This document shows, one piece after another, positions 7,634-8,930 of a DNA stretch of 20,762 nt. The notes under the pieces are model-generated. The model saw only the letters and a program-made list of their open reading frames with translations. It did no database searches and was not told the origin of the DNA. Position 1 is the first letter of the stretch, and each line of letters opens with the position of its first letter. The stretch is from Gammaproteobacteria bacterium (GTDB lineage: Bacteria > Pseudomonadota > Gammaproteobacteria > Xanthomonadales > Xanthomonadaceae), in the NCBI GenBank assembly GCA_025360985.1, contig JANYBA010000366.1, positions 1 through 20,762 on the forward strand. Direction: 5' to 3'. The translations under genes and the position numbers were made by a program.

Positions 7634-7975
7634 TTAAGTCGACGCTTTTGCCCGGCACCGGAAGGCAAAAAAACGCTGCGCGCCGTCGGCCGGCTCGGCC
7701 TTGGGCTGGACGGTGTCGGCGCCCAGGCCGGGCGCCTCGTTGCGGGCCAGGGTCTCCAGCTCGTCGCGAACCCGGATCGCGTCGCGCGAGTAGGGGCCCA
7801 GCCGGTCCTTGACCGACACCTCGATCTCGCCACGCCGTTCGCAGGCGGAAAGGTCGGCGCCGAGCTTGGCCACGCGCACGTTTTCGGCGCCGGGCGCCAT
7901 CTTGACGAAGGTGCAGGCGGAGGCGAGCAACGCAGTCGCTGTCGCGGCCAGTAGCAAATGCGATGGAGTCGTCAT
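7634..7975 (-). CDS. Small lipoprotein, DUF4156-like
   Basis: This 113-residue protein starts with a signal sequence ending LLASAC, so Cys21 is a likely lipidation site, although the residue three before it is Ala rather than the usual Leu. The mature part has the DUF4156 pattern. An early cysteine lies in [13 protein letters not shown], the [18 protein letters not shown] segment follows, and FFAFRC is near the end. The two mature cysteines may pair. The family has no known function. The start at 7975 gives a proper signal peptide; longer readings upstream lose it. It is divergent from the sigma-54 controlled small gene and lies 78 bp ahead of oleA on the same strand, probably as a separate transcription unit. 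Confidence 0.85.
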
Positions 7976-8034
7976 GGGTCGGGGCGTCGATTTTGGGGGT
8001 CGCGCCATCCTAGTCGCGTTTTCCGCCGCCACGA

Positions 8035-8090
8035 CTGTCCGCGCGTTGCTGCGGACAGCCGGCGGACAGCCTTCGAAGCGACGCGGACAG
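8035..8090 (+). promoter_or_regulatory. Array of four GCGGACAG half-sites upstream of the sigma-54 promoter
   Basis: CTGTCCGC at 8035-8042 is the exact reverse complement of GCGGACAG at 8051-8058, giving an 8-bp inverted repeat with an 8-base spacer. Two further direct copies of GCGGACAG lie at 8062-8069 and 8083-8090. Direct copies start 11 and 21 bases apart, close to one and two helical turns. They end 45 bp before the -24 element, where enhancer-binding proteins usually bind. The regulator is not identifiable from the window. Confidence 0.6.
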
Positions 8091-8133
8091 TTCCTTGCGC
8101 GCCCATCTGCCTGTTTATGCAACCAAGTTCCCT

Positions 8134-8148
8134 TGGCACGCATCCTGC
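8134..8148 (+). promoter_or_regulatory. Sigma-54 (RpoN) -24/-12 promoter
   Basis: TTGGCACGCATCCTGCT (from 8133) contains GG (8135-8136) and GC (8147-8148) with the required 10 bases between them. It matches TGGCACG-N4-TTGCT in all but one of the conserved positions. Transcription would begin about 8160, some 50 bases before the ATG at 8209. Enhancer-like half-sites lie upstream. Confidence 0.75.
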
Positions 8149-8208
8149 TATGTACGAACAAAGCGCACCAAGCCCAACCGACCCACCACCGCATTACGGA
8201 GAGCCGCC

Positions 8209-8448
8209 ATGTCACTGACCACCCAACTGCTGCGCGGCGCCTTCGCGATGTCCATGCTGCTGATGTTCGCCCTGCTCGCCTTGGCGGCCACGCCGGGCGT
8301 GCCGCGCATGGCCTTGCAGGCCGACGCGGCCACGGCGCGACCGCTGGTCTGCCGGGTCGAAGTGGCGCATACCCGGATCCTGCTGCTCGCGCAGACGCCG
8401 GCCGACCTGGAAACCCCGGCGCGCTGGAGGCAGGCCTGCCGGGCGTAG
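8209..8448 (+). CDS. Small exported or membrane protein, unknown function
   Basis: I do not recognise a family. The ATG at 8209 follows GGAGAG at a good distance and starts a 79-residue protein. Residues about 10-27 are strongly hydrophobic ([19 protein letters not shown]), a signal peptide with possible cleavage after ALA, or else a membrane anchor. The short mature part contains two cysteines (LVCRVE and RQACRA) that could pair, and a hydrophobic [15 protein letters not shown] stretch. Third codon positions are strongly G/C, as in its neighbours, which supports real coding. Expression is probably sigma-54 dependent. trmL starts 11 bases after the stop, so part of trmL expression may come from the same promoter. 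Confidence 0.65.
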
Positions 8449-8459
8449 ATACTGACGGG

Positions 8460-8930
8460 ATGATCCACGTCCTGCTGCTTGCTCCGGAAATTCCGCCCAA
8501 CACCGGCAACGTCATCCGTCTTTGCGCCAACACCGGCGCGCAGTTGCATCTGATCGATCCGCTCGGATTCGAACTCGACGATGCCCGCCTGCGTCGCGCC
8601 GGCCTCGACTACCACGAATACGCCGACGTCCATCGCCACGCCACCCTGGCCGACTGCCTGGCGCAGCTCGGCGCGCCGACGGTCTACGCGTTCACGACCC
8701 GGGCCGGGCGCCGGTTCGACGCGGCGGAATTCCGTGCCGGCGATGCCTTGTTGTTCGGTTCGGAATCGCGTGGCCTGCCCGATGCGGTGGTGGCGTCATT
8801 CCCGGAGTTGCAGCGCCTGCGCCTGCCGATGCGCGCCGGACAGCGCAGCCTGAACCTGTCCAACGCGGTGGCGGTCGCGGTGTTCGAAGCCTGGCGGCAA
8901 CTCGGTTACGTCGGCGCCGACCCACGATGA
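8460..8930 (+). CDS. trmL: TrmL, tRNA (cytidine/uridine-34 2'-O)-methyltransferase
   Basis: TrmL methylates the 2'-O of the wobble nucleotide in certain tRNA-Leu species using S-adenosylmethionine. The 156-residue protein has the usual length and the three SPOUT motifs. Motif 1 is [15 protein letters not shown] (12-26), motif 2 [11 protein letters not shown] (98-107) and motif 3 [22 protein letters not shown] (124-145), which form the trefoil knot and SAM site. The ATG at 8460 is the first residue of the conserved core ([17 protein letters not shown]), which fixes the start. It follows the small exported-protein gene closely and converges with gpsA, the two stops being 30 bp apart with no evident terminator hairpin. 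Confidence 0.95.

Follow-up and report, generated by a model that had tools for sequence, protein, structure and literature searches.

A predicted sigma-54 promoter with clustered candidate activator half-sites before a small exported-type protein gene of Arenimonas, and its probable link to a MacB-like exporter operon

Among described systems, GlrR (QseF/YfhA) is a response-regulator activator of sigma-54 promoters with the site TGTC-N10-GACA, and PilR of P. aeruginosa uses a (C/G)TGTC element. The accessible part of PMC6058289 gives TGT-N11-AGA and GTCT as hallmarks of PilR sites, and the accessible part of PMC3224663 names only NtrC and PilR as sigma-54 activators of Xylella, where the pilA1 promoter is TGGCACACCTTCTGCT. 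As far as the accessible text of PMC5985334 goes, MacAB of Salmonella and E. coli is controlled by PhoPQ, the peptides that MacB transports are commonly small and held by disulfide bonds, STII entering the periplasm by way of Sec, and BceAB-type transporters are MacB-architecture ABC systems linked to their own two-component systems.

Here we describe a locus in a stretch of 20,762 nucleotides that was analysed as a whole (the window), from an organism whose genus we infer to be Arenimonas. Our reading, which we hold with good though not full confidence, is that it contains an enhancer and a sigma-54 promoter for the gene of a small exported peptide, and that this promoter would be driven by the response regulator of an unlinked exporter operon. 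As found in Arenimonas, this operon shares with MacAB and the darobactin exporter DarBCD a MacA/RND-type adaptor (129.5 bits to TIGR01730, cut-off 94.9), a DarD/LolD-like ATPase, and MacB_PCD and FtsX permeases. It differs from them in that the ATPase and the two permeases are separate proteins, that no outer-membrane factor was seen in the operon, and that its proteins score below the MacB and Dar equivalog cut-offs. Its control, moreover, is predicted to involve sigma-54 and not PhoPQ. As in BceAB-type transporters, a MacB-architecture ABC system is linked to a two-component system of its own, but here the exporter is Gram-negative and has an adaptor, the response regulator is a sigma-54 activator, and an unlinked small exported protein is under the same type of promoter. 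With pilA1 of Xylella, a related bacterium, the locus shares the sigma-54 promoter class; unlike in a PilR regulon, the sites of its array differ from those at Arenimonas pilin-type promoters. The likeness to GlrR lies in the type of activator, in the TGTC/GACA ends, and in the position of the exporter operon next to a gene that we take, from its sequence, to be glmS. On the other hand, the regulator scores 287 bits against a cut-off of 763 for the GlrR model, and in the window the first inverted pair has the spacing TGTC-N14-GACA. The literature searched, to which subscription papers were largely external, yielded no description of this circuit, in keeping with the preliminary description of the locus as a candidate for an undescribed one, and none of the trigger or cargo of this class of MacB-like exporters.

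The promoter region in the window

The putative -24/-12 element, TGGCACGCATCCTGCT, is located at 8134..8149 on the forward strand. It reads exactly TGGCACG-N4-CTGCT, as had been claimed, with GG and GC correctly spaced and CTGCT replacing TTGCT, and is the sole exact match in the window. Since the core pattern with two mismatches is matched at close to the chance rate (10 matches, 6.47 expected), the argument rests on conservation and not on the match as such. A scan for sigma-70 promoters between 7950 and 8600 found none, and an rpoN gene is present in the genome to which the window belongs (G000, an assembly of 2.28 Mb in 401 contigs, 81.6% complete). The core is followed by a likely ribosome-binding site, GGAGAG (8198..8203, forward strand, read from the sequence), and by an open reading frame for an exported-type protein of 79 amino acids, P0002 (8209..8448, forward strand). 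The preliminary description had foreseen a 79-residue exported or membrane protein in this place; it was right about the order of core and gene, but put the start about 50 bp from the core, whereas the ATG begins 60 nt after the core's last base. A gene on the same strand that we presume, from its sequence, to be trmL, for a tRNA methyltransferase, begins 11 nt after the small reading frame (8460..8930). A divergent gene for a DUF4156 lipoprotein-like protein (7634..7975, reverse strand) is a neighbour outside the proposed circuit.

Upstream of the core, the 8-mer GCGGACAG occurs in exactly four copies in the window, all inside 56 nt and one of them inverted. The inverted copy (CTGTCCGC on the forward strand) lies at 8035..8042 on the reverse strand, and the direct copies are at 8051..8058, 8062..8069 and 8083..8090 on the forward strand, so that the direct steps of 11 and 21 noted earlier are exact. 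Copies of CGGACA, as in the first direct half-site, recur upstream of the core in congeners, as does the class of site to which the second belongs; the third, closest to the promoter, reads GCGGACAT in the closest relative, G005. By itself, the count of GCGGACAG is ordinary (1.73 expected; four copies reached in 11 of 100 shuffles), and three copies of an 8-mer within 60 nt are common (64 of 300 shuffles). What is unusual is the tight clustering. Defined as four non-overlapping copies, within 60 nt, of an 8-mer with at least three different letters, such a cluster arose in none of 300 dinucleotide shuffles, and this one is the only example in the window. A search for more arrays found no second direct pair of GCGGACAG at most 30 nt apart in the window's assembly, with one match for the backward-read control, and a plasmid collection searched with the region gave no match. 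The array had also been called phased, and this is only loosely true: the steps of 11 and 21 hold in the window, but the spacing of direct copies in relatives is 7-13, 17-22 or more nt. Judging from these sequences, the array does not conserve a strict helical phasing.

Conservation beside trmL in Arenimonas

We used trmL as an anchor to compare the promoter region among 27 Arenimonas genomes. It was found in 26 of these, as 27 loci, and the small gene lies directly before it in 19 genomes. At eight trmL loci, in seven genomes, another gene takes the place of the small gene and no core lies there; the promoter thus goes with the small gene. Core-like matches about 600 nt upstream of trmL in three genomes that lack the small gene were ignored as situated elsewhere. 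All 19 small-gene congeners have the -24/-12 core with at least two exact copies of CGGACA or TGTCCG within the 130 nt upstream of it. Altogether, the 19 promoters contain 61 exact hexamers, while shuffled sequences gave a mean of 1.6 and a maximum of 6 over 200 rounds. This conservation marks the hexamers as predicted upstream activator sites, and it answers the preliminary description, which had made its case depend on half-sites being retained in relatives.

In relatives, the distal TGTCCG is often part of the final codons of the upstream gene, and the hexamers were therefore recounted in the stretch after its stop codon, with the upstream gene recognised by homology. This left 38 hexamers, with at least one in 17 of the 19 promoters and at least two in 14. 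A cruder stop finder, for which any long open frame counts, left 27 (at least one in 12 of 19, at least two in 10). At the loci L031 and L038, every exact hexamer falls inside the inferred coding part of the upstream gene. In many relatives, then, conservation of the distal copy may be partly due to coding, given where the equivalent copy sits. In G005, the 20 nt around the core are identical to those of the window and the flanks have diverged. A DNA search of 61 genomes gave matches in 17, and the promoter region itself aligned only in G005, since the small gene evolves fast, as can be seen from the identity of only 23-54% between congener small proteins and P0002.

The exporter operon and its regulator

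The strict pattern CGGACAS N26-56 TGGCAYG N4 YTGCW matched in 18 of the 27 genomes, and its reversed control in none. Besides the trmL site, it identified seven promoters, all before the same periplasmic adaptor gene. With a relaxed pattern, 20 of 27 genomes gave matches, and its reversed control gave five; counted from the table, it covers 39 distinct promoters, namely 19 at trmL, 17 at the adaptor gene and three others (G013:C23:16365, G022:C237:25561 and G019:C92:5419). The patterns are strict, and other targets or activators may escape them. A protein search gave 18 adaptor promoters, each of which has the core. At least one exact hexamer is present in 17 and at least two in 13, and the sum of 35 hexamers compares with a shuffled mean of 1.7 and a maximum of 7. 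On this comparison of sequences, the pair of motifs marks essentially one other promoter in the genus, which is that of the exporter operon.

The genes of this operon encode, in order, a MacA-like adaptor, an ABC ATPase, two FtsX/MacB permeases, a response-regulator sigma-54 activator and a histidine kinase, and the adaptor gene is divergent from the presumed glmS. The regulator, of about 451 amino acids, has the receiver-AAA-HTH layout of sigma-54 activators, and the same motif is present at the promoter of its own operon. An exact scan for the IHF consensus gave nothing at those Arenimonas adaptor promoters that it covered. In three genomes (G017, G025 and G008), a distant adaptor (28% identity) has a paralogous activator 4-5 kb away (L174/L339, L190/L341 and L192/L340), which suggests, from gene arrangement, a second type of exporter-activator operon there.

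The distribution of the regulator was read from a tree of 92 activator hits over 26 genomes, taken from the sequence stretches retrieved. Its exporter branch has 20 tips, of which L174, L190 and L192, without the Walker A sequence GPNGxGK, were set aside. Exporter-type activators with GPNGxGK were found in 17 genomes, each of which also has the small gene. The exporter is evident, from activator or adaptor, in 19 genomes, the small gene is present in 19, and both are found in 18; only the small gene is found in the incomplete G000, only the exporter in G010, and neither in seven genomes. The hypergeometric value for this co-occurrence is about 7e-5, worked by hand and taking no account of shared ancestry. 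With G000 set aside, 16 of 18 small-gene genomes have both activator and adaptor, G011 has the activator only and G019 the adaptor only; the regulator is therefore present in 17 of 19 small-gene genomes, and is missing from G000 and from the G019 hits. Searches of the window's own assembly found neither activator nor adaptor, so the circuit is assumed there from close relatives such as G005. The adaptor promoter of G010 (L335) carries the array, though this genome has no small gene before trmL; its peptide partner, if any, would be located elsewhere.

From this genome context, which the preliminary description had proposed as a route to the activator, the exporter operon's response regulator emerges as a strong candidate and the likely activator of the small gene. 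The foremost alternative is that NtrC or another activator reads the array and the exporter's regulator only happens to accompany it. Matches to strict patterns do not prove the identity of the protein that binds the array, and NtrC-like proteins, so labelled from likeness alone, occur in 26 of the 27 genomes. The small-gene promoter is found in 19, however, and since NtrC-like proteins are present in all seven trmL genomes that lack the small gene, NtrC does not track it. The exporter regulator does (17 of 17), and the same motif stands before its operon in Burkholderiales and Xanthomonadales. We therefore regard this alternative as improbable.

Still less credit can be given to the idea that the array is a set of PilR sites and the small gene part of a type IV pilus regulon, which was our first thought. 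Of the two strong sigma-54 activators that the window's assembly contains, one is PilR-like, its clade lies near pilin genes in several relatives (the label is based on likeness and on pilin genes within a few kb in several genomes), and CTGTC in the array recalls the (C/G)TGTC element of P. aeruginosa. Against this, the hallmarks TGT-N11-AGA and GTCT, as given in the accessible part of PMC6058289, are absent from both strands of 8001-8210. Among 25 pilin-type loci, a core was found near the gene in four, and these four promoters have no CGGACA or TGTCCG, but carry other repeats. The distributions do not match either: the PilR clade is found in 19 genomes, including G002 and G010, which have no small-gene promoter, and not in G017, which has one. 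PilR was dropped on these three grounds. In all four of the pilin-type promoters (L090, L093, L098 and L104), GTCACTTTGTGAC or a near copy lies upstream of the sigma-54 core, and repeats of this kind are candidate sites for the pilus regulator.

Just as doubtful is the possibility that the promoter serves trmL, and hence tRNA modification, with the small reading frame a leader or spurious. The 11-nt gap makes co-transcription probable, but the eight trmL loci without the small gene are also without the core, and the small frame is intact in 19 of 19 congeners, with R9, P64 and C77 invariant; a profile search at E<=0.001 gives 132 proteins, one of which is the query. Sequence comparison thus points to trmL as a probable read-through passenger of the small-gene promoter, kept where the small gene is absent. 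Finally, that the array is a product of chance or a hairpin repeat with no regulatory role hardly needs to be entertained: a hairpin could indeed form from the inverted pair, and many relatives have a distal copy that overlaps a coding region, but the hexamers are conserved far beyond shuffled sequences, clusters were absent from all 300 shuffles, and the motif recurs at a second, unlinked promoter.

The small protein, the predicted circuit and candidate targets in other genera

P0002 consists of a hydrophobic N-terminal helix followed by a short tail, in which two cysteines are near-invariant and an AxxPxDL motif is present. The preliminary description had assigned it to no family, and searches against Pfam and NCBIfam matched 0 families. 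In an alignment of 39 rows, R9, L60, P64 and C77 are invariant and C48 is nearly so. The congener frames encode 73-111 amino acids, which begin with a hydrophobic stretch and end in an AxxPxDL...C tail. Among the 120 relatives listed from the 132 hits, the few organisms that are named are nearly all Arenimonas, with one MAG labelled Rhizobium. The AlphaFold model shows a confident helix at residues 3-26 and an ill-defined tail (mean pLDDT 66.5). Since MacB substrates are commonly small and disulfide-bonded, according to the accessible text of PMC5985334, cargo would be the most economical role for P0002, which is small and has an N-terminal helix and two near-invariant cysteines. By this analogy, the peptide could be the exporter's cargo, which we propose tentatively and at less than even odds; it may instead be an accessory or a sensor ligand.

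A gene under an enhancer-binding activator, as the layout had first suggested, is supported by core and sites in 19 of 19 congeners and by their presence before an operon that itself encodes a sigma-54 response regulator. Building on this conservation, on the motif common to both promoters, on the co-occurrence and on the place of the regulator gene, we propose the following circuit. Copies of (C/G)TGTCCG or CGGACA(C/G) would be half-sites for the response-regulator activator, which in relatives is encoded together with its histidine kinase at the end of the glmS-divergent MacB/DarB-like exporter operon. A periplasmic or envelope signal would cause the kinase to phosphorylate the regulator, which would then bind the array, contact sigma-54 polymerase at 8134-8149 and switch on the small gene, and would activate its own exporter operon from a promoter of like design. 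The peptide would be exported, with a disulfide between its two cysteines. In a bolder version, which we consider rather unlikely, the peptide would be both cargo and signal, the kinase sensing the peptide or its failed exit, so that peptide export under sigma-54 would amplify itself; in Pseudoxanthomonas and Stenotrophomonas, the same slot would then be filled by a repeat protein that has no detectable similarity to the peptide. For a class of MacB-like exporters across Burkholderiales and Xanthomonadales, the proposed circuit names an activator, an operator motif and a partner operon as candidates. Small exported proteins with this type of promoter become direct candidates for cargo or sensor, and the motif allows the regulon to be read from sequence in related genomes.

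The exporter activator has at least 586 relatives in named genomes, and we analysed the best 80 of them. These 80 include Massilia, Duganella, Undibacterium, Pseudoxanthomonas, Stenotrophomonas, Xanthomonas, Lysobacter, Thermomonas and two Kofleriaceae bins. All six operon genes are present in 77 of 80 loci, and the adaptor lies within the stretch examined in 78. A core is found within 330 nt at 66 of these 78 adaptor loci, and at 61 it is accompanied by at least two exact hexamers. The full exact pattern is missing in 17 of the 78, in several lineages: Massilia, Pseudoduganella, Telluria, Janthinobacterium, Undibacterium, Chiayiivirga, Lysobacter, Thermomonas, one Pseudoxanthomonas, A. composti, a Burkholderiales bin and both Kofleriaceae. 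The exact 16-nt core of the window is also found at the exporter promoter of six Pseudoxanthomonas loci, and a GTGTCCGCGGACAC palindrome occurs at several Pseudoxanthomonas promoters. The DNA-reading segment of the regulator is LSRQALYRR in 67 of 80, MSRQALYRR in nine and LSRQAFYRR in one, and was not found in three. An IHF-like AATCAA-N4-TT(A/G) is visible in several promoters of these named genomes.

A search for other targets covered 19 genomes, chosen because the exporter pattern was already known in them. The pattern matched in all 19, and its reversed control matched twice. Adaptor promoters in the resulting table were assigned by their cores (L317, when checked, proved to be the adaptor of operon L261), and 13 further sites are listed beside them. 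Five of these, in two Pseudoxanthomonas and three Stenotrophomonas genomes (L313, L316, L314, L318 and L342), precede exported-type proteins with VxVRPsaxxL repeats, which have at least 500 relatives at E<=1e-5 and no Pfam domain among the 120 listed. Profile comparison of the Arenimonas peptides with four of the Pseudoxanthomonas and Stenotrophomonas repeat proteins found no similarity (probability 0.7%), and so no homology is claimed. Two sites, in Duganella (L344 and L345), combine a core and CGGAC-rich sites before an exported protein of 505-508 amino acids, presumably an M61-type peptidase. In a Burkholderiaceae MAG (L319), a CGGACA array and a -24/-12 core stand before a gene for an exported hydrolase-like protein of 529 amino acids, a possible further target. 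The rest comprise one site before a gene for a MacB-like permease, one before a gene for a secreted-type protein, one without a clear gene, and two in apparent coding sequence that are probably due to chance. Judging from the genes behind the 13 sites, putative targets outside Arenimonas lean to exported proteins.
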